34,394 bases of DNA from positions 1 to 34,394 of IMG/VR virus record IMGVR_UViG_3300028196_000044, one strand, 5' to 3'. A program made the translations under genes and the position numbers. The notes beneath the pieces are model-generated. The model made no database searches and was not told where the DNA came from. It saw only the letters and a program-made list of their open reading frames with translations. Source of the stretch: a virus. Shown here piece after piece: positions 57 through 17,572 of the stretch. The stretch's first letter is position 1. Every line of letters begins with the position of its first letter.

Positions 57-1898
57 TCAACAGTTCCAAGCTCTAAGCGATTTATTAATTCTACTATCTG
101 GATCTCTTGCAGTTTTAGCAGAGGTTAATTTACTTTTCATACCTTTCATTCTTGCACAGAATGATGCTCTTCTTTTGTTACCTTTCTTTTTAGATGGTGC
201 TTTCAGGTCAGAACCAGGATTTTCTGCTTCATAAGACTTACGTCCTTTTTCATTGAGACCACCTTCCTTATTCTTACCAGACTTTTTAGTCCATGCAGCA
301 CCCTCTGAGTGGAGAACTGGTTCTCCTGGTTCATAGTCTGAAACCTGGTAGGATCTTACTCTACCACCAGGATAAACTTTTTCAATTTGATCTTGGATAT
401 CAGATCTGCTTGGGATTCTTACCGAAGGGAAGAACATTTTAATACCATACATCTTACCTCTAAACGTGAGGTAAACCATTATAATGTTTCCAGTTTTTCT
501 GGGAACTTGCACTGCCTCATCTACTTTCTCAAGTGTTGGACATTCTTTAGCACCATGAACAGGACAATCCTCCCCCTTATGGTTATGCATACACCCTTTC
601 TTTTCATCAATCTGTTCAACTTCTTCGTTCTTCACACAGTTTGGATATCTCTTACCAAACATAGTCTTCATACCTTTTTTGGTATATCCTTTCCAACACT
701 TTTCATCAAGCATCTTACTTCCAATTCCTTCAGTTGGTTGTAAAGGTTCTGGTGTAATTATATCTGTAAATTCATATTCAGTTGGTTTATACTCAGATCT
801 CCAATTAGAAAACTCTTCTTTTTTGGTTTTATTACCCCAGTTAGCAGCACCCTTCTTACGGCACTTGACTAAAGCACCTGATGCGTATGCAGATGGCCAT
901 ACAGAATAACGAGACTTGACTTTATGATAACAAGCATCTTTTTCTCCTGCTGCTTCTTCAATGTCAATTTCATCTCCAACTTCTACATTATTTTCAACAA
1001 ACCATCCACGATTAACTTCTAATGCACAAATAATTTCATAATCTGATGAAACTGGATTTGTATCATTTGGTTCTAATTGCTTAATACTCTCAATAATCCC
1101 ATCTTCTCTAATAAAAGCAATATCAAGAGGAATTTTTGTTTCAGTCATATGGAATGACTGTTTACATACTTCATCAAATATGAATAACATTCCACTATTA
1201 TTATCTAAACTTTCTCGGAACATCAATCCAAGATTAAAATCTCTAATGTCTGTAGGGACTTCAACTTGGAGAGGTAAGGTTGTAAATTCCTCAGTTTTGT
1301 AATCTTTACCAGTTTTAATTTTATCCATTACAGAAGCACGACCATGCTTATCCTGTTTATGACGAATCATACGCTTATAACGATCAAACTTATCATTACC
1401 TTGCTTATCAAGCATATCTTTTTCGAGGATGGTTTCTTCTGTCTTCACGTTAATTGCCTTCCCTGATCTATTTGGATTTGGATCTTTTGTATTTTTTCTA
1501 CGAAACGCTGCTTGCTCCTCATCTTTAGAGAGATTGCGTTTCATTTTACTAGAACCACACTTTGGTTTTGTGGTTTGTCCTGGTTGCTTGGCACAAGGTT
1601 TTCCAGCGTATTTCCCACCCAGTTGAACCCAACCAGGCTTGCCATCACTAGACTTACTCTTGCCAAACCAGTCACGCAGAGAAGAATCACCACTTTTCGA
1701 TTCACTTACTCCTCCACCGTTTCCATTTCCATTGGAACCATTTCCATTCTTATTCTCATCATCATCCACAGAATGACCATTCTCCTTACGAAGATATCCG
1801 GCACGACCGACCATCTTAAACCCTTTAGGAATAGGTTTACATTTTTCGTCAGTGTAGCAGTAATAATATCCTGCCTTACATTTGCCGTTCTTAACCAT
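57..1898 (-). CDS. Mosaic Lys/Cys-rich protein with a central DUF192 domain
   Basis: This 613-residue protein is a chain of small modules. Residues 1-40 form a Cys/Tyr motif (KCKAGYYYCYTDEKCKPIPK). A Gly/Asn linker follows at about 50-63, then a Trp/Cys/Lys module at 76-123 (DWFGK...KPGWVQLGG). Residues about 207-312 match DUF192 (GLMFRESL, GMLFIF, IPLDIAFI, LEVNRGWF...VGDEI). A DUF5872-like motif lies at 328-355 (SAYASGALVKCRKKGAANWG), a CWKGY...YPNCVKNEE motif at 401-425, a possible zinc knuckle at 436-453 (Cys436, His438, His440, Cys445, His448, Cys453), a conserved-looking block at 467-530, and a basic C-terminus like DUF6321 at 533-613, ending SLRAWNC. Biochemical function is unknown, and there is no signal peptide although cellular DUF192 proteins are often exported. 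It sits between the fibre gene and gp17, behind its own late promoter. It could be an internal virion protein, a packaging accessory or a host-directed protein. Module recognition is firm; role is inference. Confidence 0.8.
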   Translation of the reverse strand: MVKNGKCKAGYYYCYTDEKCKPIPKGFKMVGRAGYLRKENGHSVDDDENKNGNGSNGNGNGGGVSESKSGDSSLRDWFGKSKSSDGKPGWVQLGGKYAGKPCAKQPGQTTKPKCGSSKMKRNLSKDEEQAAFRRKNTKDPNPNRSGKAINVKTEETILEKDMLDKQGNDKFDRYKRMIRHKQDKHGRASVMDKIKTGKDYKTEEFTTLPLQVEVPTDIRDFNLGLMFRESLDNNSGMLFIFDEVCKQSFHMTETKIPLDIAFIREDGIIESIKQLEPNDTNPVSSDYEIICALEVNRGWFVENNVEVGDEIDIEEAAGEKDACYHKVKSRYSVWPSAYASGALVKCRKKGAANWGNKTKKEEFSNWRSEYKPTEYEFTDIITPEPLQPTEGIGSKMLDEKCWKGYTKKGMKTMFGKRYPNCVKNEEVEQIDEKKGCMHNHKGEDCPVHGAKECPTLEKVDEAVQVPRKTGNIIMVYLTFRGKMYGIKMFFPSVRIPSRSDIQDQIEKVYPGGRVRSYQVSDYEPGEPVLHSEGAAWTKKSGKNKEGGLNEKGRKSYEAENPGSDLKAPSKKKGNKRRASFCARMKGMKSKLTSAKTARDPDSRINKSLRAWNC

Positions 1899-1921: not shown

Positions 1922-1929
1922 TATTTATC
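1922..1929 (-). promoter_or_regulatory. Late promoter for the DUF192 gene and gp17
   Basis: Read on the minus strand the site is GATAAATA, extended as TGATAAATAATA. It matches the NATAAATA late-promoter box of T4-like cyanophages (T4: TATAAATA). It overlaps the last codons of the fibre gene, and its 3' end is 23 bases from the DUF192 start codon, like the other four boxes in this window. Confidence 0.7.
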
Positions 1930-4189
1930 ACCCATCAAGTGCCACAGTAAGACCAAGTGTCATGCCAGGTAGTGACTGCCAAGAAGAACTGTCATAGAAT
2001 TCCATTTTCTTGGATGTTATATTATAAATCATAGCACCTTCAGTAAAAGCACCTGCTGAAGTAAGAGAATCTCTTTGCGTTGTTGTATAAAGCGGTGGAT
2101 AAAAAGCAGTTGCTGCTTTAATCGTAGATGCAGTAACAATTCCAGCATATGTTGCGTTACCAGAAGATAATATAGTTACACCAACTCCTGGACCACCTTC
2201 ATAATCATAACCAACATTTATTTCTGTTCTAGCAGTTACAATTCCAATAGAATCAACATTGATTTTATTCTCAGTCCTGAGAGTTCCACCAATAGTTACA
2301 TTACCATCAACATACTGATCTCCACCAACATAAAGAGCAAAATCAGTTCTTGCAGTAGTAGCAATACCGACATTTCTAGTTGTGCTAACACCAATAGCAT
2401 CAGATGACCATGTTCCACCTGCTCCGACACTGCCACCAAATTTAAATTTTTTGTGCTTATCCTTTCCAGTTTGATTTACATCAACAATAAGAGACATTCC
2501 CTGATAAGAACTAATGTCAGTAGCAATGCCAGCAATATCATCAAGATATTGAAGTCTTGTTTCTCCACCACCACCTATGGTAGAAATTTGTTGTTGAACT
2601 CTGTTGATAAAAAGTCTGTAATGCTCTTGTAATTGGTCTAGTGTGACAAAGTTTTGATCTAATGGTGTAAGGGGGTCTGAGGACTTATTAGAGGGGTCTC
2701 CTGGTAGATTGGGGTTATCTTCTTTAAGGAAAGACTTTACACTATCCTCATTAAATTTAGATATTGTATCTTCAATATAGTTAATTCTTTCTACTAACTT
2801 TTTATTTTTATTTTCTAATACATCTAATTGAAGTTTATCTAATACTTCTTTAATCTCTTCCTGAAGATCCCCAATATTTTCATTCTGTTTTTTGATATGA
2901 GATTCATTGACAGTAAAATTTACTTCAAGATCTTTCATTTGCTGAGAGATCTTGTTTCTAAATTTACCTACTTCATTTTTCAATCCAGAATGATATGACT
3001 CATTTGATTGTACTAAAACATTCTGTATTTCATTTAGATCTTCTTTTACGGTTTCCTCTATAAACCTAAACTTCTTATCAAATTTTTGTATTTCTCCAGA
3101 ATAATCTTCTAATTTTTTATTTTCATAAATTTCTCTCTTTTTAAAATCTTTATATAAAGATTCATATGTTTTTGATATAGAATTAATTTCTTCTTTACAT
3201 TCTCCAACTACAGTTTGAAGTTCTTCAAACCTATCAGATGCTTTCTTATCAATATTTTCAGATAGAGATTCTAATTTCTCTGTTACAGAATTAACTCTCG
3301 AAAGAACTTTTTCTTCTAATTCTTTTACTTCCTCTTCTGATTTTATTTTATTTTCAATCAGAAGATTATTATATTTTGGTATCTCAACTTCTGTAAATTC
3401 CTTTACAGTGGCATTTAAACTTTCTATTCTCTCTTGATAAGAATCTATTGAAGTTTTAATTTTTTCTTCAGTTCTTATTTCTGTCTCAGCAAAAAACTTT
3501 TTGTATTTTGGCAGTTCTTTTTCTACTAAGTCCGATATAGTATTATTGACTTCTTTAGTTGTTTTTCTAAAATCACTTTTGATATCAGAGATAATATTTT
3601 CATTAAGACTTTCAACAGTCTCTAAAGCATTAGCAACCTCTTTACTTGTATCAGATTTAATTGCATCAAAGTTCCCTTCAATCTCCTCTTTAAATTTTAC
3701 AAACCTATCATCTACTCTAATCTCTGATTCAGATACTAACTTTTTATATTTGGGTACATCAATATCAATAAAAGATTCTACTGAGTTTGAAAGATTAGAA
3801 AAATCTTCTTTAATTTTATCTACAGTTTCTCCATTAATAGAAGATATCTTAGATTCAATTTTAGATATAGATTCTTGTACAAAAAGAAGTTGTGCCATCA
3901 TGGCACTATCAAGATCTTCCTTTCTAATTAATTCTTTTAAATCTTCTTTTATTGTAAAGATCTCTTGAGAAACAGTTTCAACTTTTTCTAAGTTCTCTTT
4001 AAAACTATCAAATGTATTTGTAAAATCGGATAGTGATTTAATATGATTTAAATTATTTTTAAAAGTGTCAAATGCTTCCGAAACCTTCTCAATTTTTTCT
4101 GGACGTGCAGAATCATACTCCTCTTTTATCTGATCTAAAGGAGTTTTATTTGTATCTTTAAAAAAATCTGAAGGCTTCTTTAATGCCAC
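1928..4189 (-). CDS. Coiled-coil fibre-like virion protein between gp16 and the DUF192 gene
   Basis: The protein has 753 residues. Residues about 20-490 are rich in Glu, Lys, Ser, Asn and Ile with heptad-like spacing, and predict a long coiled coil. A motif PKYKK/PKYNN followed by an acidic ExEIRxEE-like stretch occurs at 146, 227 and 271. After a Pro/Ser/Asp linker (491-512), the C-terminal third (about 540-753) is Gly/Thr-rich with GIVTAR and GIVTAS motifs (649, 683). It ends in a block typical of phage fibre tips (TTTQRDSLT...GAMIYN...FYDSSSWQSLPG). A trimeric fibre or whisker attached to the neck or tail is the likely role, by fold type and late expression. T4 has no gene here. The start is GTG at 4189-4187, chosen because GGAG lies 11 bases upstream and the late promoter sits just before it. 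Attachment site and receptor cannot be told from sequence. Confidence 0.78.
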   Translation of the reverse strand: MALKKPSDFFKDTNKTPLDQIKEEYDSARPEKIEKVSEAFDTFKNNLNHIKSLSDFTNTFDSFKENLEKVETVSQEIFTIKEDLKELIRKEDLDSAMMAQLLFVQESISKIESKISSINGETVDKIKEDFSNLSNSVESFIDIDVPKYKKLVSESEIRVDDRFVKFKEEIEGNFDAIKSDTSKEVANALETVESLNENIISDIKSDFRKTTKEVNNTISDLVEKELPKYKKFFAETEIRTEEKIKTSIDSYQERIESLNATVKEFTEVEIPKYNNLLIENKIKSEEEVKELEEKVLSRVNSVTEKLESLSENIDKKASDRFEELQTVVGECKEEINSISKTYESLYKDFKKREIYENKKLEDYSGEIQKFDKKFRFIEETVKEDLNEIQNVLVQSNESYHSGLKNEVGKFRNKISQQMKDLEVNFTVNESHIKKQNENIGDLQEEIKEVLDKLQLDVLENKNKKLVERINYIEDTISKFNEDSVKSFLKEDNPNLPGDPSNKSSDPLTPLDQNFVTLDQLQEHYRLFINRVQQQISTIGGGGETRLQYLDDIAGIATDISSYQGMSLIVDVNQTGKDKHKKFKFGGSVGAGGTWSSDAIGVSTTRNVGIATTARTDFALYVGGDQYVDGNVTIGGTLRTENKINVDSIGIVTARTEINVGYDYEGGPGVGVTILSSGNATYAGIVTASTIKAATAFYPPLYTTTQRDSLTSAGAFTEGAMIYNITSKKMEFYDSSSWQSLPGMTLGLTVALDG

Positions 4190-4214: not shown

Positions 4215-4646
4215 TTATTTATTGTCTTCTTTTAAACCATTCTTCAACATTTTTGCCAAATCTGCAGTAGACCCAACAAATAGTGCATTGTTAACAGTAG
4301 AAGGACCTTTTGATTTAGTGTCTTCTTCAACATCTTTTAATTTTTTCTGAAGATCCATTAATTTGTCAGTTGCATCTGCAACATTTTTAATTAACTGACC
4401 TGCAACTTCATATGCTCTAGGCATCTCACTTTCCTGTGCTAATTCAAGAATTCCATTAATTGCTTCTTGACCCTTTTCAATTATACTATAAAGATTTCCG
4501 CGAGTATACTCATAATCTTTTGTAACATCATCAGGTTTAGACTTAACAACTTCTTGAACTTCTTTTTTTACAATTTCAGCATCAATAACATCATTCGAAA
4601 CATTAAAGGTATCATTTAGATCTTCAAATTTGCTGCCGGTTTTCAT
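4215..4646 (-). CDS. 16: Small terminase subunit gp16
   Basis: This 143-residue protein corresponds to T4 gp16 (164 residues), the ring-forming regulatory subunit that recognises concatemeric DNA and stimulates the gp17 motor. Residues 40-110 are largely helical and include an ExxMPRAYEVAGQLIKNVADAT stretch, like the central coiled-coil region of the family (T4: SPRHMEVFATLMGQMTT). Near the C-terminus NNALFVGSTADL parallels T4 QNATVFMGSPTEL. The ATG overlaps the gp15 stop in an ATGA (4 bases), implying translational coupling to gp15. Unlike T4, gp17 does not follow directly: two genes and about 4.2 kb intervene. The identification is secure from motifs plus the 13-14-15-16 order. Confidence 0.9.
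   Translation of the reverse strand: MKTGSKFEDLNDTFNVSNDVIDAEIVKKEVQEVVKSKPDDVTKDYEYTRGNLYSIIEKGQEAINGILELAQESEMPRAYEVAGQLIKNVADATDKLMDLQKKLKDVEEDTKSKGPSTVNNALFVGSTADLAKMLKNGLKEDNK
4216..4223 (-). promoter_or_regulatory. Late promoter for the coiled-coil fibre gene
   Basis: AATAAATA on the minus strand, in the context CAATAAATAATAA, overlaps the last codons of gp16. The box ends 26 bases before the GTG start of the fibre gene. It matches the NATAAATA class of T4-like late promoters and shares the ATAAATAATA extension with three other sites here. Confidence 0.65.
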
Positions 4647-5701: not shown

Positions 5702-8266
5702 TTAGGGCATTCCAAAAGGATTCTGCTCACTGAAGTCCAATATAGAATCTGCGGCACTTTCTATATTGAAATTGTCTGCAAATGGATCATTATCAATTGT
5801 TTTATCAACTACTCTTAGAACTCTTGTTGCGCCCGAAGTTGACCCTGTAAGAGTTTCTCCTAAAGAGAATGAACCAGAAACTGCAGCAATTTCAAGTAAA
5901 TTGGTTGCAGAGTTCCACGATCTTACCCTTGCAGTTACTCCAGTTGTGGACCCAGTAACAATTTCATTAAATACAAATTCTCCACTAGAAGTTGAGGATG
6001 GTTCAGAGATAGTAATATCTGGCGGAAGTATGTATTTGTTTCCACTATCAGTGACGTTAATACTAGTAATTGTTCCTGCTGCACTGATTACAGAAAGTCC
6101 CGTAGCAGTTGCTACGCCAACAACTTGATCAACGTAATTCTTATCACCCACAGTGTTGGATATTGAAACTATTGGAGGTGATAAGTATCCACCACCACCA
6201 AATGTAACTGCAATACCAGTAACAATACCACACTTATCGATACCAAACTCAAATACTGATGTTGCAATTCCTACGTTCGTTGGAGATTGATTTATAGAAA
6301 CAATGCTTGATCCAATAGACGTGACAAATGTATCTGTCGATATAAAGTTATATAGATCACTATATCCAACACCAAGTCTTACTCTATCTCCGACAAAAAT
6401 ATTTGTTGTAGTAATACCAGTAATAGTTGTAGATCCTATACCAATAGTTCCTTCAGTTTTAACAGAATTGAAACGAATTGTTGCAATACCAAGTGCTCTA
6501 AATGCCTCATTTGCACCACCAGGAACGCCAATAGAGACGGTTGGAACAGAATTATAACCAAATCCACTATTACCGATACTAATGGTGCTTACAGTGCCTG
6601 CAACGGACACAGTAACACTAGCAGTTGCTTGCACTGGTGATGGACTTCCAGAGAAAGAAATACTAGGTGCCACAGTATATCCAGCACCAATTGTTGCTCC
6701 TGTTCCCGTTGCCCAAGAATCTGAGATATTGAAAGATACTGCTGTAATAATACCAGTTATTGGATGAATTGTTGCAATACCGACAGCAACTTGAGTTGGG
6801 GCATCCATTGTCCCAGATGTAGAGATTGCAACAGTAGGTGCAGTTGTGTATGCTCTACCAGTGGTGCTAAATGCAATAGAACTTGGATTAATAGATGACC
6901 CAACAATTCCTATAGTTGCAGATACAAAACTTGTTCCTGGATGTGAAATTGTTACTGTTGGAGTACTGGTATAGAACTTACCACCAGTTGTAATAGCAAG
7001 AGTTTCTACAGTTCCTCCTGTCAGATTAATAGTATCAAGAGTTGCAGCTGCTTCTGCACCATTTCCTGTTCCTGTTGGTAGAGATAATGTAACTGTTGGT
7101 GCTTCTTTATAGAATACACCACCGGTTGTTCCTCCAGGGAACAGATATGCAGATGTGCCAATACTAATTGTTGCAGAAGTTACACTTACACCTCCACCAA
7201 CTATTGGAGAGTCTAAAGTTGCTGTTGCTGCTGCTCCAACATGTTTTGGACTTGAGAACGTTACCGTTGGTGGTTCAACAAATCCTCCGCCAGAATTTGA
7301 TAATGTTACTATACCAACACCACCAATTTCACTAATAGATGCAGTTGCAGCAGCACCAGAACCAGTATTATCAGTTGTGCTAAAGGTCAATGATGGCGCA
7401 ACTGTATATCCTGATCCGGCGTTTGTAACATCAACTCTCTGAACAGATCGAAGTCTTGGGTTTGAATTGAGATTGCAAACATTTATCCCACCAATCATGG
7501 ATGCAATTCCAACTGCCGTTACTCCTCCTGCAGATGCAGAAGATACTTGCACTGTAGGAATCATGCCATATCCACCACCTCTATTAGTGATAGTAAACTT
7601 TCTTATACCACCAATTACAATTCCAGAAATTGCAGATGCACTAACTGCATCTCCAACCATAGTAAGTGTTTGAGTAACTCCCTGAATGGTACTAATACCA
7701 TCATCAGTAAGACCATCAGATTCATCACCTAGTAATTCATTATCAATATCTTCAATTCCAGTATCAATAACTTCATCTTGATAGCGGAAGAGTTCGCAAT
7801 ATAACTCATAGACATATAAATTTTGTAACTGATAATATGGTTTTGCATACTCAATATCTTTAATCTCGTAAAGACGATCATCAAGAGGGAACCATATTAA
7901 ATCCCCACCTTTTGGACGAGTAGAAAGTTTTATATTTGCTTGCCCTTGAATTAATGGAGTAATGTAATTTTCATATCTCTCTCTTGATATAATCAATCTA
8001 ACTTCATCTTTAGACTCAATACCAAATTTTGATAAAACATCTCCAGCACCAGAATAAGCATCGTAATTATCAACATATGCCTCAATTGGTAAAGCACTAT
8101 CAAATTTAGATTGTACTACTTCTCTTATGACTGTTTTTTCAGTCATATACTTTCTTGGAATATAATAGATGTCAACACCATACATCCTCAATTGCTCATT
8201 GATTAAACTTTGAACTAAATTTTGCTCAGAAGAAGTGCCCTGAGTGAAGAAAGGATTTAATACCAT
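5702..8266 (-). CDS. 14: Neck protein gp14 with a long internal repeat insertion
   Basis: Residues 1-180 correspond to T4 gp14 (256 residues in total): RMYGVDIYYIPRKYMTEK, FGIESKDEVRLIISRERY, KGGDLIWFPLDDRLYEI and PYYQLQNLYVYEL match the T4 pattern (VECYYVPREY, GDLIYFPMDNSLFEI, PFYQLG). The last 35 residues (DPFADNFNIESAADSILDF...NPFG) look like the family C-terminus (T4 SSPFDNDF). Between them lie about 640 extra residues with about ten GxGY-PxVxI type repeats from about 215 to 740 (for example GSGYTVAPSLTF, FGYNSVPTVSI, GGGYLSPPIVSI), then a TGSTTGVTARVRSWNS / TGSTSGATRVL pair. gp14 joins gp13 to complete the head for tail attachment. The repeats are probably beta-rich and surface exposed. 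The start codon overlaps the gp13 stop by one base (TAATG). The neck call is secure; the function of the insertion is unknown. Confidence 0.9.
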   Translation of the reverse strand: MVLNPFFTQGTSSEQNLVQSLINEQLRMYGVDIYYIPRKYMTEKTVIREVVQSKFDSALPIEAYVDNYDAYSGAGDVLSKFGIESKDEVRLIISRERYENYITPLIQGQANIKLSTRPKGGDLIWFPLDDRLYEIKDIEYAKPYYQLQNLYVYELYCELFRYQDEVIDTGIEDIDNELLGDESDGLTDDGISTIQGVTQTLTMVGDAVSASAISGIVIGGIRKFTITNRGGGYGMIPTVQVSSASAGGVTAVGIASMIGGINVCNLNSNPRLRSVQRVDVTNAGSGYTVAPSLTFSTTDNTGSGAAATASISEIGGVGIVTLSNSGGGFVEPPTVTFSSPKHVGAAATATLDSPIVGGGVSVTSATISIGTSAYLFPGGTTGGVFYKEAPTVTLSLPTGTGNGAEAAATLDTINLTGGTVETLAITTGGKFYTSTPTVTISHPGTSFVSATIGIVGSSINPSSIAFSTTGRAYTTAPTVAISTSGTMDAPTQVAVGIATIHPITGIITAVSFNISDSWATGTGATIGAGYTVAPSISFSGSPSPVQATASVTVSVAGTVSTISIGNSGFGYNSVPTVSIGVPGGANEAFRALGIATIRFNSVKTEGTIGIGSTTITGITTTNIFVGDRVRLGVGYSDLYNFISTDTFVTSIGSSIVSINQSPTNVGIATSVFEFGIDKCGIVTGIAVTFGGGGYLSPPIVSISNTVGDKNYVDQVVGVATATGLSVISAAGTITSINVTDSGNKYILPPDITISEPSSTSSGEFVFNEIVTGSTTGVTARVRSWNSATNLLEIAAVSGSFSLGETLTGSTSGATRVLRVVDKTIDNDPFADNFNIESAADSILDFSEQNPFGMP

Positions 8267-9108
8267 TAGCCTATCATATCAAGTGGTGGTAGTTCGTATG
8301 TATTCGACATTACCTCTTTAATTTTATCCAATTCTCTCTCTGCATCATCGTATATTTGTCTTCCATTTAACTCAATTCCACCGGGTAATTTAACACCTTG
8401 GAATTTAATTAAATTTTGACCCCATTGTCTTTTGATAAGAGCAGTTAAATATCTTTTTAAGAATGAATCATTATAAACTCTCGCAAAATCATTTGGATCT
8501 AAAAGTCTCCAACAATCTAGAACAATATACTCATCCTTGGTTACATTTGCCCAATCTACATCTAAATATAGTCTATCTTGCCTCTGATTAAATCTTATTT
8601 GCTTCTCAGTATTCAATAAAAAATCAATATCTGAAAGATAAGTCTTTGTCATTGCATATGATAACATCTCCATAGAACTGAAGAAATACATGTCATTTAG
8701 AAATAACTGATACTTAAGACTAAACATTCCGTTAGATATTGTGCTACTATCAAATCGGAATATTTTATTGATGCCAATTACTGCTGGAGGAACCTGAATA
8801 TAATTACTATTCTCTTCATATGAAAATGATACAGTAGCACCATCAATGGATGCATTTGCAGTTGTAGTGACAATTCCAGTAGGATTAGTTCCTCCTCTCC
8901 CTTGACCCCTATCAATATCTTCTTGAGTTATTTTGTATTTTAAATATGTCTGAACTACGCCGTCAAAATGTCTCTCATGGAAGTACTGGAGTGCATCATC
9001 AACTAAATCATCAATCTGCTCATCAGCAACATTTATCTCCAATACAGGAGCACCTAGCTGCCTCTTACAGTAATTAACTAGATCTGTTCTACTTGCTGGT
9101 TGAGCCAT
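8266..9108 (-). CDS. 13: Neck protein gp13
   Basis: At 280 residues this is close to T4 gp13 (309), a head-completion protein that binds the portal vertex and forms the neck with gp14. Family signs are the N-terminal helix pair (SRTDLVNYCKRQLGAPVLEINV, DEQIDDLVDDALQYFHERHFDG), the central IPPAVIGINKIFRF-like and KYQLFLNDMYF segments, and YIVLDCWRLLDP with KRYLTALIKRQWGQNL near the C-terminus. It ends close to TYELPPLDMIG, as I know from cyanophage gp13. A late promoter lies directly upstream, and the gene leads a 13-14-15-16 unit in which two junctions overlap. GAG lies about 5 bases upstream of the ATG. The identification is secure by motif and order. Confidence 0.92.
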   Translation of the reverse strand: MAQPASRTDLVNYCKRQLGAPVLEINVADEQIDDLVDDALQYFHERHFDGVVQTYLKYKITQEDIDRGQGRGGTNPTGIVTTTANASIDGATVSFSYEENSNYIQVPPAVIGINKIFRFDSSTISNGMFSLKYQLFLNDMYFFSSMEMLSYAMTKTYLSDIDFLLNTEKQIRFNQRQDRLYLDVDWANVTKDEYIVLDCWRLLDPNDFARVYNDSFLKRYLTALIKRQWGQNLIKFQGVKLPGGIELNGRQIYDDAERELDKIKEVMSNTYELPPLDMIG

Positions 9109-9130
9109 TTATTCTCTAGTTTCCTATGTG

Positions 9131-9138
9131 TATTTATG
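9131..9138 (-). promoter_or_regulatory. Late promoter for the gp13-14-15-16 unit
   Basis: CATAAATA on the minus strand overlaps the stop codon of the 130-residue Ig-like gene. Its 3' end is 22 bases before the gp13 ATG. Unlike the other four boxes it continues CACA, not ATA, so it is the least typical of the set. Confidence 0.6.
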
Positions 9139-9526
9139 TTCTTTGCGTGACGGTATTATATACATAAACATTACCATTTACTAAAGGATACGTTGTTGAT
9201 CCTACAGTAACCAAAACATCATACATATATCTACCTTGATCCAATGCCTTAGTTTGAGTATCCGTTAGGGAAACTTGCAGTACACCGCCTAAAGAACTTG
9301 TTATGCCAACTGTAAATGTAGTATAATTACTACTACCAGTTGATACTCCAACACCAATAGATTTGGATAACTTTCCAGATCCAGAGTAACTTGTAAGATT
9401 GAAAGCACTATTTGAAGTACTCTTAATATTAAATGTTTGAGTGAAATCTGTTCCACCATAAATGGTCAAATTTGCGCCATAAGGAACTCCAGAATCTGGA
9501 TCGAAAGTAATTGTACTAGACGCCAT
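9134..9526 (-). CDS. Small virion protein with a predicted Ig-like fold
   Basis: The protein has 130 residues. The pattern of an early GxDFTQTF strand, NLTSYSGSGKLSKS, a central TTFTVGI strand, LxVSLTDTQTKALDQGRYMYDVLVTV, and a final LVNGNVYVYNTVTQR resembles a single-domain beta-sandwich family widespread in phage baseplate and tail proteins (G-Y-x-YD motif followed by a GxVxVxxxVT ending). I cannot assign a T4 counterpart. Its position, where T4 has genes 9-12 and wac, and a late unit shared with baseplate genes suggest a virion adaptor or decoration subunit. Its start overlaps the upstream small gene by 11 bases, with AGGA at 9534-9537, 7 bases before the ATG. The fold call is an inference from strand pattern. 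Confidence 0.75.
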   Translation of the reverse strand: MASSTITFDPDSGVPYGANLTIYGGTDFTQTFNIKSTSNSAFNLTSYSGSGKLSKSIGVGVSTGSSNYTTFTVGITSSLGGVLQVSLTDTQTKALDQGRYMYDVLVTVGSTTYPLVNGNVYVYNTVTQRT

Positions 9527-9698
9527 TGGTTATTCCTATAAGTTTCATAGTTTCTTGCTGTTTATAGTATAGTTTGCAAAAAGATTTTGCAATATTCTTT
9601 AGTTCATCACGATCATCACAACTATCTATCTGTGATGCCAATTTAGTGTAAGCAAATTGTTTTGACAGATTGCTTAGTTCAATGCTATCTGGATCCAT
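9516..9698 (-). CDS. Small helical protein of unknown function (60 residues)
   Basis: This short protein is predicted to be mostly alpha-helical (IELSNLSKQFAYTKLASQID, ELKNIAKSFCKLYYKQQETM). I do not recognise a named domain, though similar small proteins are familiar from the same place in T4-like cyanophages. It has the best ribosome binding site in the window, overlaps the preceding gene by 14 bases and the following one by 11, so all three small genes are probably translated as a coupled set. It may be a scaffolding or assembly factor for the baseplate or neck, but nothing in the sequence proves this. Confidence 0.75.
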   Translation of the reverse strand: MDPDSIELSNLSKQFAYTKLASQIDSCDDRDELKNIAKSFCKLYYKQQETMKLIGITNGV

Positions 9699-9912
9699 TT
9701 AATAACTCCTTAAGTAATGACTTGATATCGTTGATATCATCTTTGATGGTAGCAACCTCATCTTCAATTGTCTGCATCTTTTGATTTTTTTCATTTTTAA
9801 CCTCACGATTAGCAATGTACTGATCATAAGATGCATGATTCATATTAATTACAGTATTAGTTTCAAGATCTCTTGCGAGATCCTTATGTCCCTTTACAGT
9901 ATAAATTTCCAT
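9685..9912 (-). CDS. Small coiled-coil protein of unknown function (75 residues)
   Basis: I start the gene at the ATG at 9912-9910 (MEIYTVKGHKDLARDL). It lies one base after the stop of the 2552-residue gene, a normal coupling arrangement. An in-frame ATG at 9957 would add 15 unlikely residues inside the preceding gene. The C-terminal half (about 44-72, MQTIEDEVATIKDDINDIKSLLKELL) has clear heptads and should form a short coiled coil. No named family is recognised. Co-expression with baseplate genes suggests a small virion or assembly protein. No good Shine-Dalgarno sequence precedes it, so translation may depend on re-initiation. Confidence 0.75.
   Translation of the reverse strand: MEIYTVKGHKDLARDLETNTVINMNHASYDQYIANREVKNEKNQKMQTIEDEVATIKDDINDIKSLLKELLNGSR
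9706..9711 (-). promoter_or_regulatory. Strong ribosome binding site for the 60-residue gene
   Basis: AAGGAG on the minus strand lies 7 bases upstream of the ATG at 9698, inside the end of the 75-residue gene. It is a near-ideal Shine-Dalgarno sequence and fixes this start. Confidence 0.8.
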
Positions 9913-9913
9913 A

Positions 9914-12900
9914 TTATGCAAGAGCAATAACTTGTAGATTTTTAAGTTGAGGTGCAAGTGTTTGATTTGTCGATGTCATTACAAGTTTTATCCTATAAGT
10001 TCTAAAGGAAGGCAGATTATCTATGGAGAATTTATGTTTTTTAAAAATTGTATCCGATAGAGAAAATCCTCTTTTATTGGAACTTGATACTAAAACATCA
10101 GTTCTTCCGTCACTATCTTCTTCATTTATTATTAGACCTTTTTTATCTAAATTCAGATATCCTGGAAATGGTGTAAATACTGATTCAAATCCAGGATTTC
10201 CACTAATAGAATATAATGCTCTAAGATCACACTCTGATGGAATTTGTGCATCAACCATTATTTGTAAAGAAGTTGCAGGATTTTCTAATGATATTTCTTT
10301 AGAAATATATTGACAAGCACTAGGATCATTAAACATTGTATTTACTCTAGAATCCTCAGCATAATTTAAAATTTTACTATTAACTCTATTGGATATTGCA
10401 TAAATGACGGCTCTTTCAAGATCAATTTGAGGACTTACTTTTGAATTTGCCGTACCAAGGGAAAGTCTCATTTGGAAAGACTTATTACCCTCAACGGAAT
10501 TTAATCTGCGATCCTCATTCACTTTTGAGAAAATTGCTCTTGAAGAATCGAGATAATTATTTTCATTCAATGTAACATTTTCAAATCCAAAATTAATATA
10601 AGGAATTTCATTACCACTAATACTTTGTGATGTGGTAGTTCTTATTTGACCAGTAACTGTAGTCCCTTCAGGTGTAATACTGTGGATAGATGGTTTAATA
10701 ATTTCGAAAGGAATATTCTTAGTGGCCTTTACATTTTCTCCACCAGTAGAATCAGACGCACCTATGAATAGTTTGGGAAATCCTGCTGCTGAAGACGATC
10801 TATCCGCATTAGCAGATTGACCTGATGTTCCATACTTCTGTGACATATCAAGTTTAATATGATATGAATCCAGATTTATTGGATCTGCAACAGTTACATC
10901 ATTTAGATCATGTGTTTTATTAAGTCTTGCAAGACTTACTCCACTCAATTCATACTTATAAACAGGAGTACCGCTGGCATAAGTTTTGGGAGTTGTTCCT
11001 CTAGAAATATTACCACCAATTGATGATGCTGTTGTGGAAGTATATTCTATAACCTCCTCTCCAATCAGAATTAATCCAGTATTAGTTGACCCTACAGAAA
11101 CATTTTCAAACGTGTTGAATATATCTCCTGTTCCACTTGATACTGAAATCGGATCTGTGGAAGATTTGGTATATTCTGCCGTCAGTTTTGTTGGTTTAAT
11201 ATCTGGAAGGATTCCTACAATTCTAACAAAGTTATCATCAAAATTCATTCCATGATTTACGTGATTAACTTTAATGTGCAGTCCATCAGATACTGTTGTT
11301 GATGCGTTAATAGTGACATCTCCACCGAAAGCAGTTCCGTCAAATGTTCCACTATTCAATTCTCTAAGAGCACCAGTACTATCAAAGAAAGTTAATGTTC
11401 CTGCAGCACCAGTTACAAAATCTCCTTGAACATTATTAAGTATCAATTGTGAAGTAGCACCTATAGAGGTTAAAGTAAATCTAGAATTTCTACCAACACT
11501 AGCAGCACCAATAGTATTGATTGAAAGTACATCACCAACCTGATAACCATCTCCACCATTTCCACTAATTGTCGCTGCTATAGCAACACCATTTTGAATA
11601 GAAACATCAGCAACTGCACCAGATCCTGATCCAGAAATTGTAACTAAATTGACACCAGGGAAAGATGCAAATCCACCTGCAGGAGTATAACCTATTCCAG
11701 GATTTGTAATCGTCATAGTTCCTGTGGCACTTGCAGCAACTCCAACAAGATCTCCAGTTGCAGTATTATTAACTTGGGAGAAGGTATTACCCATAACATA
11801 ACGATTATCTGCTACTGTTGTTCCAAGTCCCACACGAATTTCTTTAGAAGAAATATTTAATGGATTTTCCATCAAATTAGCGATTTGCTTATTACCTTCC
11901 GAAAGTTCTGGATTGTATAGATCGACAGTTCCAGATTCTACAAAATCTGCTCTATAGAGAATGTACTTGAGATCCTCCCATTGACTTGCTTCCCATGTAG
12001 AAGCATTTTGAGATTTAAACAGAGATCCAAGATGAGGTTGATCAGAAATATATGTATCTGTAAGAGTATCATTTTCACCAACTCTCGAAATATAAACACT
12101 ATATTTCTTTGATTGTGATACTAAGCAAATTGCATATTCTTTTCCAGATTCAAGATAAACTGGATAATCAAATTGAAATGTAGTTGCAACAGATCCATCT
12201 GTTGATGTGTTAACATTATCTGGAGTTAATGTAATTTCAGATTCAGCGAAAAAACTAGGAGTTGGGTAACCATCCTTCATTGTTCTAATCTGAATCTTAA
12301 CACCAGTGTTTTCATCATCTTTTGTACGGAAGAAAATATCGCATTTTGTTACAAACACTCCTTCAGGATCGATATCTGGATCAACTAGGAACGATTGTGC
12401 TAGAGGATCATAATATCCAACGATATTCTCAGTTGTAACTGGGTTACCAGTGAGTCTTGTATCAACAATCTCAGTATCTAAAACTCTAGAAACGGCTTCG
12501 TTGTCAGAAAATATTTTTCTATTCTCAATGCGTGCATTTCTAATTGATAGAATTTGATCCTGAATTGTTTCTATAATACCTGAGGTTGTATATGCTTGCT
12601 CACCAATTGTTGTTGCAGCATTTTGATCATTTTCTGGATCATTTGTCAATGTGAATATATTAGTTCCAGTATCAAAATTAGGATTGTCTCCATTACTAGG
12701 ATCTGGAATAAATAGACTTCCAATTAAAGCAGAAGATGAGTCGCTAATCAATCTAACTTCTCCTACCTCTGCTTCTGCACCACTAGTTTGTCCGGTTAGA
12801 ATCATCCCAGTTTGAATACGACCAAAGAAATCTCCTTGTGGTTGATTTGAAAGAGAGTAAGTATCTACATTTAAAGTTGTGGAAGTTGATGAATACAATT

Positions 12901-15900
12901 CTGGAATTGTACCACCACTTACATAGGGATTATCTGGATAAACTTCTGTAGGTGAATTGTAATCACCTTTTCTATGATTTGATTGTGCTACTCTAAAATC
13001 AATCTGAGGATCAGTATTTTTTCCTTCCTCACTTAATCCAACAGAAAGTACCCTACCCTCTACAGATTCTCCAACCTCGAATGTTCCAGATTTCATGGTA
13101 ATCTCAATCAGTTTTGGAACACAAAACTTCGTAACATCTTTTCCATCAAAAAATGCATAGATCTGTGTGCTTGGTTTTAGGTTAGTAGAAGAAAATTGAA
13201 CATTTCTAGATCTAACAGTAGAAATAATCTCTGTACTTATAACTTTTGATCCAAGATCTATTGTTTCAAAAGTTTCAACAACCTGATATTGTGTTCCATC
13301 ACGGCTCTTCTCTCCACTTTCAACAGTTTCAATAACATCTTGCTCAGTCGTTTGAGTGGTAGTATCTTGAACCCATGATGCAACACCACTACCACCATTA
13401 ATCCATCCACCCTTGCCGTAGGTTTCACCAGTTGTTACTGAATCTGGACCATCTATTGTATTTTCCGTAGATGTAGTAGTTCCAGACCAGTTAGTTTCCC
13501 AAGAATTCCATATTTCTGAAGCAAAACCAGTTTCTGGATCAACTCCATGCTTCGCTTCTGCCTCAGACATAACCTGAGCATAGTTTCCAATAGAATCAAT
13601 TGTTTTGGATTTCATTTTATTTGGGGTGACCCAATTATCAGAAGATGGTGTTAATTTTATATTTCCCTGCCAAAAACTAATAAGGAAAGGTGTTACACTT
13701 TCAGTTCTAGTTGCAAAAGGTTGATTTATCCATTCAATTTCACTATATTCTAAACTAATAACGTCACTTTGCTTTCTAATATTAACACCTTCTATTGCAG
13801 AAGTGCTCTTATCTTCGTTGGTATTAACATCAACAACTGGTCCAGTTTGTAAATCAAGTTCATTTGTAATATGTTTTGGTCTAAGTACTTGATTGGTTTG
13901 ATCGATACTATTATGTTGACCAACTGTTGCATCTTGAGTTTTAATAGATGCAAAATTGTCAACAAAGAATCCAGATTTAAATCTGTTGAGACCATTAGCA
14001 TCACTAATAAATTGATTTGCTGTATTTGTTTCAAGTAAAGAAAGATGTGTATAATACTCTAATTTTTTTATGCGATCTTCCAATCGCTTAATATCCTTCA
14101 TCTGGAATCTCTTATACTTCAGGAACTTTATAGATACCTGCTCTGTATTATGAAGATAAGGGGGATAACGCATTTCTGCAATTTCAATAGCATTCTCAAT
14201 AATTTCTGGTTTAGATCTTGTTGGATCGTCCGAAGGAACTCCAAATTTTAATTGGAATTTTCCATCTTTATGTAAAAACAATCTATCAATTCTTCCTTGA
14301 TAATATGAATAATCTAAGAAAATAGTTTCATTAGATGCTAGAATACTAGGAACAGAATTTCCTAAACCATCAAATGATCTACCAAGAAATTCTAAAGGAG
14401 ATCTAGAAGAAGTTGCTGTAGTATAATCACTAACTCTTGGTCTTAAATCTATAAGATCAGTATTTAATACGCCATTAAATGTTTTAACTTCAGTTGAATA
14501 ATTAAAGTCATTATATGAGTCTACAGTGACAATATCTCCGTCATCAGAAGAATCAAAAGATGCACTCTTATAATAAATTTTTATCTTGTTCTTTGGTGAA
14601 TTTGAATCAGATTTTCTTGTCAAAGATCCATGATTATACGTTGTTTTTCTCTGACCAGAAGCAAAGGTGTAATTTGATGCGATATTAAATGATGTTGTAT
14701 TTAAAGCGCCAATTATTCCTTCTATTAAAGATTCTTGGAAAACTACAACTTCCCCTTCAATAAATTTAAAATTATTTTTAGGAAGATATCTTAAATCACT
14801 GGAATTTTTAACTTCACCAAATACTGCAACTGCTCCACTTGATTGACCAACTAACAATTCACCAATAATCATATCACCTGTAGTAGCAGTTGGTCCATTG
14901 AGTTGAGCTAAAGTCATCTCAGGAGATCCAAAGTTTGCATCAGTTAAAGATACATCTGATGTTTCATATATTCCATGAATTCGAATAATATCTGGAGTGT
15001 TTAAAGAAATTACATTATCTTGAACTCTAGTGCCAAATGGATAATCACCATAAGATAATCCATCATTAAGAGTTGTTGATCCAATTCCAGATGCTGGATT
15101 TATGGATTTATCGACTACTAAAGTTTTAACTCTATTTTTAATTTTTTTCTTAGATTTTATATTTGATTTTTTAACCGTAACAATAAGTTTCGCTCCTATA
15201 TTATTAGTTCCTAAATTTCTAATTTGAACTTCTCTGAGATTAGATGAGAATTGGAATTTATCTGCAGACAAAGATTCAGTGACTCCATCTGATCTAATAA
15301 GAGTATATCTTTGGTCAGAATATGATAAATAAATTTCACCTTCTGGTAGGGTTATATCTGCAAGACTTGTAGAATTTAATTGATTATCCTCAATAGTAAC
15401 AGTAAAAGTTTTTCTTATGGTTATTTCAGCATCAGTTAAATTAACTGCAGCGATATTTGTTTTTGGCAATTCTGTAAATAATGTATTATCAGAAGAAGAA
15501 TCTAATTGTGTTGTAAGTAGTTCTAGATCTGATGCTACAAAATTTGATGCTGGAAGACTACCACTAACAACTCCAGTTACAGTAGTAACTCCAGTCACCG
15601 TGATATGAGATGATCCTATAGATACTACTTTGGCAGTAATTGGATCATTAGATATCGAAATATCAGAATACTGAAGTAAACTATTTACTTTTATATTTCC
15701 AGGAAATAATTTATTGGAACTAGTTACTGTGCTAATTCCACCAGAAAATTTAGTAACTGATGCAACACCTATAGTGGCAGAAGATGTCTGCACCACATTA
15801 GCACTAAAGGTATTGACTCCAACTACATTATTACCATTAGGTCCATCACCAATTCCAGTATTTGAATATACTGATTTTACGTTTGAAATACCATATGATG

Positions 15901-17572
15901 TTATAGTCTTTGCTACTCTATTAATCGTAGTTGATTGTGTAGAAATTCCACTTCTAAAAATTAGAGTTTCATTTTTGGCAAATTCTCCCTTTTTATCATA
16001 AACAGTCAAAGATGTTCCTACTACAACAGGACTTCTTAAAAATGCAGTAGCTCCACTATTACTACCTTCAACATATGAAGGAATTGTTAGATTTAATTCT
16101 TGATTAACTTCAATTTCAGTGAAGGGTTGTATGTCATACATTGACATTCCCCACTCATTATCATCCGGTAATGCTGAATTATAAGACCCAGATTCTAATC
16201 TAAAGTCAAATACTCTAGCAAAACCAATTTCTTTTCCAGGTGCTGCTTCTGAATTTGCACCAACTCTTTCATCCCTCAAACTCAATATAAAAGTATTTCC
16301 CACTCCTACAGTTGGAGATCTATAAACACTATTTAATTTCAGAGTTGGTCCCGTATTATAGTTAAAAAATTGATTTTCTACAGTTCTAGTAGTTCTTGGT
16401 TTTGGTATATCAATAATAGTATTACTAGTTGTTTCAATTTCATATCCTTTTACATATGCTTTTCCTGGAGAAATTCTACATACAGCCAAATCTGCATTAG
16501 CAGCAGTTCCCCCTGCAGTAAACTGACCGGGTTCATATAAACCCTGATTTCCTAAATTATTGTTTAATGAATTTATAATGGAAACATTGAACGGTTTTAC
16601 AATATAATGACCACTCTCATCAAAAGTTCTTCTCGCTAAAACATCAGTTAAATCATCATGAAAAACTGCGCCATTTCCTTTGGAATTATTAGCTCTCCTA
16701 GTTACTGAGGTTTTTATATTTCCATTTTCAATCGTTGCTAATTCTATAAAATTATCATCATTAAAATCATCAATAGATTTTTTAAATAGACTTACTGAAA
16801 TTTTTAGTCTATCTGCTCCAGGAGCTCCATAATTATTAAATCCTTGAGAATTATCATTAAGGGATTCATCTGAATTTGTGTTTATAATCTCCTCAGATAC
16901 AAATAATCCTACTCTGTAGCTGGGTTTATTTGTATATTGATCTAGTATTAACGATTCTTTACTTACATTTACAAAGTATCCACGTATAAAATACACCCCT
17001 TCTTCAATTTGAAATACTGATCCAGTTGAAGATGCATTATTGGATATAGTATTTGCAAAAGGTGTTCCTGAAGAAATAGTAGCATTTCCAAGTAATCTAG
17101 AACTAATAGTCTGATTACATGCTAAAGATTCTCCATCAGAAAAAGTTTGAGTGGTGTTATCTAATCTAGATGATCCTGAATATGAAACATAAAGAGTTAC
17201 AGAACCTCTTTCAGAATCTTGAGATGATAAAATATTATCAACAACTGCAGTTACTCCAGAAGTCTGTCCAGTAATTGTTGCTCCAACTAATTGATCTACA
17301 TATGCCTCAACAGGAACACCTTGAAAATTATTTGCTAATTGAACCGCGTAATATAGTTGAGAATATCCAATATTACCAGGAATTACTTTTGCACCTTCTC
17401 TAAAGAAGTGTTGTCCAAATTTTTCTACTTGATTCTGTAGAATTGACTGCAGAGTACTTAGTTCTCTTGCCTGAACAGGATATCCAGGTTTAAAAAGTAC
17501 TTTTTGATAATCATTTGTAGGATCAAAATCGTCAAAGTAGGGAGCTACATTGAGGTTCGTTTGTTGTGGCAT
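9914..17572 (-). CDS. Giant DUF4815-type baseplate-associated protein (2552 residues)
   Basis: The N-terminus (NLNVAPYFDDFDPTNDYQKVLFKPGYPVQARELSTLQSILQNQ, split here by reading) is the DUF4815 signature of cyanophage structural proteins: YFDDFD, FKPGYPVQARELS and QNQVEKFGQHFF. Residues about 1150-1240 hold a helical stretch (KFLKYKRFQMKDIKRLEDRIKKLEYY). Residues about 1724-1900 contain the DPLAQSF module common in T4-like tail proteins (DPLAQSFLV, VQIRTMKDGYPTPSFF, PHLGSLFKSQNASTW, LYRADF). One GxGY repeat block lies near 1957-2015. The C-terminal block (INFGFENVTLNENNYLDSSR, NKSFQMRLSL, PQIDLERAVIYAI) ends in APQLKNLQVIALA. In T4 this region encodes gp9-gp12, so it may replace gp10-type outer-wedge or fibre-anchoring functions; that is inference from position. 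It begins 6 bases after the gp8-like stop. Confidence 0.85.
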   Translation of the reverse strand: MPQQTNLNVAPYFDDFDPTNDYQKVLFKPGYPVQARELSTLQSILQNQVEKFGQHFFREGAKVIPGNIGYSQLYYAVQLANNFQGVPVEAYVDQLVGATITGQTSGVTAVVDNILSSQDSERGSVTLYVSYSGSSRLDNTTQTFSDGESLACNQTISSRLLGNATISSGTPFANTISNNASSTGSVFQIEEGVYFIRGYFVNVSKESLILDQYTNKPSYRVGLFVSEEIINTNSDESLNDNSQGFNNYGAPGADRLKISVSLFKKSIDDFNDDNFIELATIENGNIKTSVTRRANNSKGNGAVFHDDLTDVLARRTFDESGHYIVKPFNVSIINSLNNNLGNQGLYEPGQFTAGGTAANADLAVCRISPGKAYVKGYEIETTSNTIIDIPKPRTTRTVENQFFNYNTGPTLKLNSVYRSPTVGVGNTFILSLRDERVGANSEAAPGKEIGFARVFDFRLESGSYNSALPDDNEWGMSMYDIQPFTEIEVNQELNLTIPSYVEGSNSGATAFLRSPVVVGTSLTVYDKKGEFAKNETLIFRSGISTQSTTINRVAKTITSYGISNVKSVYSNTGIGDGPNGNNVVGVNTFSANVVQTSSATIGVASVTKFSGGISTVTSSNKLFPGNIKVNSLLQYSDISISNDPITAKVVSIGSSHITVTGVTTVTGVVSGSLPASNFVASDLELLTTQLDSSSDNTLFTELPKTNIAAVNLTDAEITIRKTFTVTIEDNQLNSTSLADITLPEGEIYLSYSDQRYTLIRSDGVTESLSADKFQFSSNLREVQIRNLGTNNIGAKLIVTVKKSNIKSKKKIKNRVKTLVVDKSINPASGIGSTTLNDGLSYGDYPFGTRVQDNVISLNTPDIIRIHGIYETSDVSLTDANFGSPEMTLAQLNGPTATTGDMIIGELLVGQSSGAVAVFGEVKNSSDLRYLPKNNFKFIEGEVVVFQESLIEGIIGALNTTSFNIASNYTFASGQRKTTYNHGSLTRKSDSNSPKNKIKIYYKSASFDSSDDGDIVTVDSYNDFNYSTEVKTFNGVLNTDLIDLRPRVSDYTTATSSRSPLEFLGRSFDGLGNSVPSILASNETIFLDYSYYQGRIDRLFLHKDGKFQLKFGVPSDDPTRSKPEIIENAIEIAEMRYPPYLHNTEQVSIKFLKYKRFQMKDIKRLEDRIKKLEYYTHLSLLETNTANQFISDANGLNRFKSGFFVDNFASIKTQDATVGQHNSIDQTNQVLRPKHITNELDLQTGPVVDVNTNEDKSTSAIEGVNIRKQSDVISLEYSEIEWINQPFATRTESVTPFLISFWQGNIKLTPSSDNWVTPNKMKSKTIDSIGNYAQVMSEAEAKHGVDPETGFASEIWNSWETNWSGTTTSTENTIDGPDSVTTGETYGKGGWINGGSGVASWVQDTTTQTTEQDVIETVESGEKSRDGTQYQVVETFETIDLGSKVISTEIISTVRSRNVQFSSTNLKPSTQIYAFFDGKDVTKFCVPKLIEITMKSGTFEVGESVEGRVLSVGLSEEGKNTDPQIDFRVAQSNHRKGDYNSPTEVYPDNPYVSGGTIPELYSSTSTTLNVDTYSLSNQPQGDFFGRIQTGMILTGQTSGAEAEVGEVRLISDSSSALIGSLFIPDPSNGDNPNFDTGTNIFTLTNDPENDQNAATTIGEQAYTTSGIIETIQDQILSIRNARIENRKIFSDNEAVSRVLDTEIVDTRLTGNPVTTENIVGYYDPLAQSFLVDPDIDPEGVFVTKCDIFFRTKDDENTGVKIQIRTMKDGYPTPSFFAESEITLTPDNVNTSTDGSVATTFQFDYPVYLESGKEYAICLVSQSKKYSVYISRVGENDTLTDTYISDQPHLGSLFKSQNASTWEASQWEDLKYILYRADFVESGTVDLYNPELSEGNKQIANLMENPLNISSKEIRVGLGTTVADNRYVMGNTFSQVNNTATGDLVGVAASATGTMTITNPGIGYTPAGGFASFPGVNLVTISGSGSGAVADVSIQNGVAIAATISGNGGDGYQVGDVLSINTIGAASVGRNSRFTLTSIGATSQLILNNVQGDFVTGAAGTLTFFDSTGALRELNSGTFDGTAFGGDVTINASTTVSDGLHIKVNHVNHGMNFDDNFVRIVGILPDIKPTKLTAEYTKSSTDPISVSSGTGDIFNTFENVSVGSTNTGLILIGEEVIEYTSTTASSIGGNISRGTTPKTYASGTPVYKYELSGVSLARLNKTHDLNDVTVADPINLDSYHIKLDMSQKYGTSGQSANADRSSSAAGFPKLFIGASDSTGGENVKATKNIPFEIIKPSIHSITPEGTTVTGQIRTTTSQSISGNEIPYINFGFENVTLNENNYLDSSRAIFSKVNEDRRLNSVEGNKSFQMRLSLGTANSKVSPQIDLERAVIYAISNRVNSKILNYAEDSRVNTMFNDPSACQYISKEISLENPATSLQIMVDAQIPSECDLRALYSISGNPGFESVFTPFPGYLNLDKKGLIINEEDSDGRTDVLVSSSNKRGFSLSDTIFKKHKFSIDNLPSFRTYRIKLVMTSTNQTLAPQLKNLQVIALA

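Follow-up and report, generated by a model that had tools for sequence, protein, structure and literature searches.

A chain of small modules encoded beside the terminase gene of marine T4-like phages: a candidate source of prohead-processed internal head peptides

The window analysed here is a 34-kb virus record of IMG/VR (IMGVR_UViG_3300028196_000044, positions 1 to 34,394; 34,394 nucleotides). It carries at 57-1898, on the minus strand, an ATG-initiated open reading frame (ORF) of 613 amino acids, P0001, in which a DUF192 domain stands in a row of short lysine- and cysteine-rich motifs, and the locus raises the question of what such a protein does next to the packaging motor. The minus-strand gene order was gp13, gp14, gp15, gp16, a gene for a 753-aa coiled-coil/fibre protein (1928-4189), P0001 and gp17. 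The terminase small subunit gp16 (4215-4646, minus) was recognised by profile matches. The start of gp17 (TerL; 1-50, minus; MPDNVYLGNPNLKKAN), identified by synteny, lies 6 nt past the P0001 stop codon, and homologues of the 753-aa protein are likewise placed between gp16 and the P0001 gene. Elsewhere in the window, the gp14 neck protein (5702-8266, minus; 854 aa) was found to have a GxGY-type repeat extension of several hundred residues, the repeats of which match tail-fibre and baseplate families, and the tail/baseplate block contains very long minus-strand ORFs (19168-31410, 4080 aa; 9914-17572, 2552 aa).

P0001 belongs to phrog_727 (E 6.3e-154, residues 63-613, a profile match over most of its length), and its relatives include Syn9 gp114, S-SM2 SSM2_109 and S-SCSM1 ORF29. 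Pfam analysis identified DUF192 (PF02643; residues 211-313, E 1.4e-24, 86.5 bits against a cut-off of 27) and, at the C-terminus, DUF6321 (PF19846; residues 541-611, E 1.4e-21, 77.4 bits against a cut-off of 28.5). The rest of the protein was comprised of six or seven short Lys/Cys modules; M1, M2, M5, M6, M7 and M8 matched no Pfam model at E<=0.05, an NCBIfam search gave nothing useful, and profiles of DUF6321 and M5 found no match in the PDB.

All features lie on the minus strand. M1 (1764-1892, residues 3-45) contains three cysteines and is predicted to be of beta structure (AlphaFold2 pLDDT about 64-85). It is followed by M2 (1458-1685, residues 72-147), by the helical linker module M3 (1281-1460, residues 147-206) and by DUF192 (960-1268), which is acidic, with a net charge of -16 for residues 207-314. 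M5 (828-956, residues 315-357; Cys323/Cys346), M6 (627-710, residues 397-424; Cys401/Cys421) and M7 (534-611, residues 430-455), which holds a candidate metal site, precede M8 (309-518, residues 461-530), a folded beta-beta-alpha-beta module. The last module, M9 (60-302, residues 533-613), corresponds to DUF6321 and carries a net charge of +16, in agreement with the very basic C-terminus noted in the first-pass annotation.

Relatives of P0001 were present in 491 phage records, mainly of T4-like marine phages (Kyanoviridae); nearly all were marine cyanophages, and most of the proteins were annotated 'hypothetical protein'. Profiles made from pieces of P0001 were run on all ORFs of the fetched relatives (loci numbered L001 onwards) and recovered M1 in 46 ORFs, M2 in 78, M5 in 83, M6 in 86, M7 in 36, M8 in 88, M9 in 93 and DUF192 in 31. 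The 81 complete multi-module ORFs showed 28 architectures, and M9 was last in 76 of them. The order of M5 and M6 was swapped in P-SSM2, and the chain was split in two in S-RS29 (L007) and in S-CREM2 (gp137 and gp160). The ORF, the Pfam match and the recurring modules confirm the first-pass description of a DUF192 domain inside a chain of mini-modules, and the range of architectures bears out its suggestion that the short motifs are exchangeable. DUF192 proved to be an optional insert that most relatives lack, and its place at the centre of the protein was not supported. The first-pass annotation had not noticed DUF6321, the likeness of the boundary motifs to protease sites, or the capsid-targeting starts seen in relatives. 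We also considered whether the modules act as tags on many proteins of one genome; this was rejected, as DUF6321 had a single copy per genome (495 places in 495 phage records), as did M5 (365/365).

Evidence of packaging came from two phages with published virion proteomes. The S-SCSM1 virion was analysed by mass spectrometry, with 45 proteins stated (PMC9602691), against 48 'virion protein' labels counted in the GenBank record; ORF29, with the architecture M1-M2-M5-M6-M8-M9, bears this label. The split products of S-CREM2, gp137 (M8+DUF6321) and gp160 (M2-M6-M5), are listed in its virion Table 3 with four and seven unique peptides, respectively (PMC10665884). Thus, 3/3 strong module proteins of the two phages were detected in virions, for which the chance expectation is about 0.009; DUF192 was present in none of the three. 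Neither terminase subunit was found among the S-SCSM1 virion labels or in the S-CREM2 virion list. The authors of the S-SCSM1 study cautioned that the suspension may retain some non-structural proteins after CsCl (PMC9602691).

In T4, cleavage by the prohead protease gp21 takes place after L/I-x-E (PMC9026906). In P0001, the looser motif [ILVMF]-x-E ends at E66 before M2 (VSE|SKS; 1701-1709, residues 64-66), at E159 in M3 (ILE|KD; residues 157-159), at E315 before M5 (IEE|AAG; 954-962, residues 313-315), at E399 before M6 (LDE|KCW; 702-710, residues 397-399), at E432 before M7 (IDE|KKG; 603-611, residues 430-432) and at E461 before M8 (VDE|AVQ; 516-524, residues 459-461). The motif is also present within domains, once in DUF6321 (E550) and six times in DUF192, and the boundary before DUF6321 reads LHSE|G, one residue off the motif.

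The same motif was common at module boundaries in general. It was present in 320 of 392 unique boundary 17-mers, compared to 150±8.6 expected when each 17-mer was shuffled (maximum of 176 in 1000 shuffles), and in 147 of 171 boundaries after redundancy reduction, compared to 71.3±5.8 by shuffling (z 12.8), counts that are not fully independent because the boundary sequences are related. Occurrences in module interiors numbered 112, compared to 124.5 expected, whereas those in linkers numbered 400, compared to 249 expected. Among the motifs compared, HxE reached a z of 12.8, ExH 5.9 and HxxE 4.5, while HxxxE and HxD (both -0.1) and HE (-1.8) were not enriched; in 19 non-virion S-CREM2 proteins, the ratio of observed to expected [ILVMF]-x-E was 1.17. 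The strict motif [IL]-x-E was clearly enriched before M5, M6 and M7 only, and not before M8, M1 or DUF192. The boundary site falls in the first profile columns for M6, M7 and M8, and both the looser motif and the capsid-targeting pattern described below were fixed after the sequences had been viewed. Close to the point where cleavage of gp23 is expected, the major capsid protein reads FLAE|APTNAVG in S-SCSM1 and LLTE|APTQAVG in S-CREM2; these sequences suggest that the protease of cyanophages may have a preference similar to that of gp21.

In T4, IPIII carries a 10-residue capsid-targeting sequence, in which residues 4 and 7 serve targeting and residues 8 and 10 serve processing (PMC9026906). 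No N-terminal capsid-targeting sequence was found at the start of P0001 (MVKNGKCKAGYYYC), and S-SCSM1 ORF29 was likewise without one. M8 is often also present as a separate gene directly after, and adjoining, the chain gene on its downstream side, even where the chain already holds M8. All 19 of these M8-only genes (L003:6530-6862, L004:4975-5301 and 17 others) start with MK[STN][FY]xxF[LIM]xE[SA], which fits T4 positions 4, 7, 8 and 10. Single-module DUF6321 genes on two T4-like contigs start similarly (L108, 89 aa, MKNFAQYIEE|DWQKKSGKN; L116, 101 aa, MKTFKQYLEE|KSPAWQRS). A split M6-M9 gene starts with MKTFNQFQAE|C, and the split relative in L007 has a capsid-targeting-like start.

Across all fetched loci, 41 of 29,044 possible start codons fitted the strict pattern, compared to 1.65 expected with the following residues drawn from the same ORF (maximum of 4 in 20 draws), although these figures are descriptive, since the pattern was settled after some of the sequences had been seen. 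The fitting starts belonged to M8-only genes, the SSM2_108 family, cytidylyltransferases, several S-CREM2 virion proteins and the DUF6321 genes of L108, L116 and L107; the one in L123 lies within a longer ORF. A slightly looser start pattern is matched by five proteins of S-CREM2, and the virion table includes all of them (P about 6e-4). In S-SCSM1, three starts fit, those of a cytidylyltransferase (virion), the portal protein (virion) and the M8-only ORF30 (not detected), and the fit of the portal start is probably due to chance.

The explanation that we favour, at somewhat better than even confidence, is that P0001 is a chain of internal head peptides processed in the prohead. The gene would be expressed together with gp17, and the chain, the small modules of which are for the most part basic and have paired cysteines, would be built into the prohead core. 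A gp21-type prohead protease would probably then cut it at the [ILVMF]-x-E linker sites, and six or seven small polypeptides, optionally with DUF192 as cargo or accessory module, would stay with the DNA inside the capsid, in the manner of T4 internal proteins and core fragments. These polypeptides would be basic, apart from DUF192 and M7, and it is from this charge that we infer contact with DNA. Phages that split the chain may often equip the detached module with a targeting sequence of its own, and phages without the protease would use DUF6321 alone. The gene position, the module shuffling, the presence of relatives in virions, the boundary enrichment and the capsid-targeting-like starts of the relatives' split-off modules support this explanation, as does the stand-alone DUF6321 gene adjoining the capsid gene in T7-like phages. 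Counting against it are the absence of an N-terminal capsid-targeting sequence from P0001 and S-SCSM1 ORF29, the offset at LHSE|G, the looseness of [ILVMF]-x-E relative to the T4 motif, and the fact that ORF30 went undetected. A packaged internal protein injected into the host had been among the first-pass proposals, and of these the internal protein is the one preferred here. Packaging gained support from virion detection, in relatives, and from their capsid-targeting look-alike starts; a location in the head interior is probable, and by comparison with the T4 internal proteins, injection into the host is possible.

P0001 resembles T4 IPI, IPII, IPIII and Alt in that its relatives are basic proteins in virions (S-SCSM1 ORF29, S-CREM2 gp137 and gp160), in having L/I-x-E-like prohead protease sites, judged by sequence and in looser form, and in that the relatives' separate module genes match the start positions noted above. 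It differs in that many modules are joined in one chain with the putative sites between them, and in that the chain has no N-terminal targeting sequence, so that it is likened to the T4 internal proteins and not classed as one of them. In the giant phages SPN3US and phiKZ, several head proteins are processed after a short motif with Glu as its last residue (PMC5694885); there, long propeptides are removed, whereas the putative sites of P0001 separate the modules of a single chain.

The main competitor, which we consider unlikely though deserving of attention, is an uncleaved head or neck protein, in which the acidic-hydrophobic linkers would serve for tethering or docking and the basic modules would attach to the packaged DNA or to the wall of the capsid. 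This would account equally well for the virion detection and the conserved gene place, and would suit a protein without an N-terminal capsid-targeting sequence. The predicted structure is also in keeping with it, as AlphaFold2 modelling of P0001 with 40 relatives (mean pLDDT 58.9, pTM 0.28) gave beads joined by disordered linkers, with pLDDT values of about 90 for M8, 80-92 for most of DUF192 and about 80 for the C-terminal half of DUF6321; M5 was without a confident prediction despite its sequence conservation. However, the boundary motif is specific in its spacing, as seen in the contrast of HxE with HxxxE and HE, and the same motif terminates the N-terminal capsid-targeting look-alike of the separate module genes, both of which argue for cleavage.

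The position of the gene bears on two further explanations. Of the 30 loci that hold gp16, gp17 and the chain gene, 29 have the chain gene between the other two, and its gap to TerL is <=30 nt in 45 of 66 loci, which upholds the first-pass observation of a place beside gp17. In Synechococcus phages, the stretch from gp16 to gp17 is an established hot spot (PMC3037559). Together with the highly variable architecture, this could point to a fast-evolving hot-spot gene that accretes short motifs and has no head role, its virion detection being carry-over. We regard this as improbable, as DUF6321 is strongly conserved, with most residues invariant in 40 relatives, and is kept at one copy per genome, and as all three module proteins were detected in virions. 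In a scan of 84,980 bacterial genomes, DUF6321 was found on 20 contigs, in which the identifiable neighbours were phage genes and several contigs had no informative neighbour.

The proposal, also made at first pass, that P0001 binds DNA and partners the terminase (gp16/gp17) in packaging is equally improbable. The modules are basic and the gene is often in close proximity to gp17, but the only evidence specific to a terminase link is the gene position. The module proteins of L086 and L089 and S-CREM2 gp160 are encoded in the virion cytidylyltransferase block, away from the terminase genes, and DUF6321 adjoins a capsid gene in T7-like phages. Furthermore, the virion lists hold module proteins and neither terminase subunit.

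The cysteines of the modules were well conserved. Cys102/Cys114 of M2 and Cys581 and Cys613 of M9 were invariant, and Cys323, Cys346, Cys401 and Cys421 were at least 90% conserved (40 relatives), with at least two cysteines kept in each small module except M3 and M8. In M7, C436, H438, C445, H448 and C453 were invariant in 31/31 unique copies. The spacing, C-x-H-x6-C-x2-H-x4-C, does not correspond to that of a CCHC knuckle (C-x2-C-x4-H-x4-C), so that of the zinc knuckle first suggested at 436-453, the conserved Cys/His set stands and the knuckle spacing does not; given that set, metal binding by M7 may still occur. The first-pass annotation had named virion detection, the position beside gp17 and retention of the Cys/His positions as tests, and all were favourable, the first for relatives only. 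The least probable explanation is a redox or metal-linked assembly factor with the paired cysteines, as disulfides or zinc ligands, in its main function, since in spite of these residues no enzyme fold was found in P0001, DUF192 and M7 are optional, and retention in the virion suggests a component and not a catalyst. The internal head peptides that we propose could equally have bound metal or disulfides in a structural capacity. A Foldseek search against the PDB at E<=0.001 returned DUF192 structures only (3m7a, 3pjy; fold match 2.3e-6), and a search against a viral library returned phage relatives. P0001 thus matches DUF192/COG1430 in sequence and fold, although here the domain is an optional insertion in a multi-module phage protein.

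Similarly, DUF6321 is fused to the chain here, whereas elsewhere it stands alone in virion gene blocks. To our knowledge, T7-like phages have no gp21-type prohead protease. In the T7-like phage P-SCSP1f, DUF6321 is a stand-alone 84-aa protein encoded after the capsid gene, and in the T7-like phage HTVC022P it is a 72-aa protein encoded between the scaffold and capsid genes; no [ILVMF]-x-E was found before the module in either. The DUF6321 gene of HTVC103P is downstream of the capsid gene, and M5 is a stand-alone gene in roseophage CRP-902. These occurrences raise the tentative prospect, to which we give somewhat less than even chances, of a pool of small internal head peptides shared among marine phages, used as prohead-processed polyproteins and separately targeted modules in T4-like phages and singly, next to the capsid gene, in T7-like phages, and crossing unrelated capsid types. 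No mention of DUF6321 was found in the literature searched, where 'capsid targeting' and 'cyanophage' occurred together in a T4 review only.

If the proposed processing is correct, several families of unknown function would be placed in the phage head interior, and packaged cyanophage proteins would follow a code of MKxFxxFLxE at the start and [ILVMF]xE between modules. Such a code would cover a cytidylyltransferase, a kinase, a SAM hydrolase and a Cas9-annotated protein, all already seen in virions.

Some further proteins with related features were noted. Cytidylyltransferase/NMNAT proteins start with MKxFxxFLxE in five loci (L012:24608-25468, L014:38819-40048, L086:2339-3616, L089:4150-5409 and L105:658-1953). 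Two such proteins of marine T4-like phages were detected in virions, and these starts would account for the repeated virion detection. The S-CREM2 virion SAM hydrolase (L009:3837-5081), gp13 (10310-10546) and kinase (10579-12846) have a targeting-pattern start, and the Cas9-annotated virion protein (7704-10313; all four minus) has a shifted version, RFASFMAEA. The DUF3008-like module (VSKKQQRFFGMVRAAQKG) occurs with M1 in L089:7617-8714, and also as the 69-aa virion-labelled S-SCSM1 ORF93 (L014:41626-41835), the ending of which, KRTFKEFLEYIE, is a possible targeting motif at the C-terminus. In the SSM2_108 family (L002:4087-4515, with relatives in L022, L031, L046, L067 and L117), encoded immediately upstream of the chain gene, a targeting-like start is followed by a sequence that mimics the N-terminus of the mature capsid protein, with FLKE|TPTNSVGNGGYTSAGGQTVAGYD compared to FLAE|APTNAVGSDGFQGGSADAGPTAGFDP in gp23.
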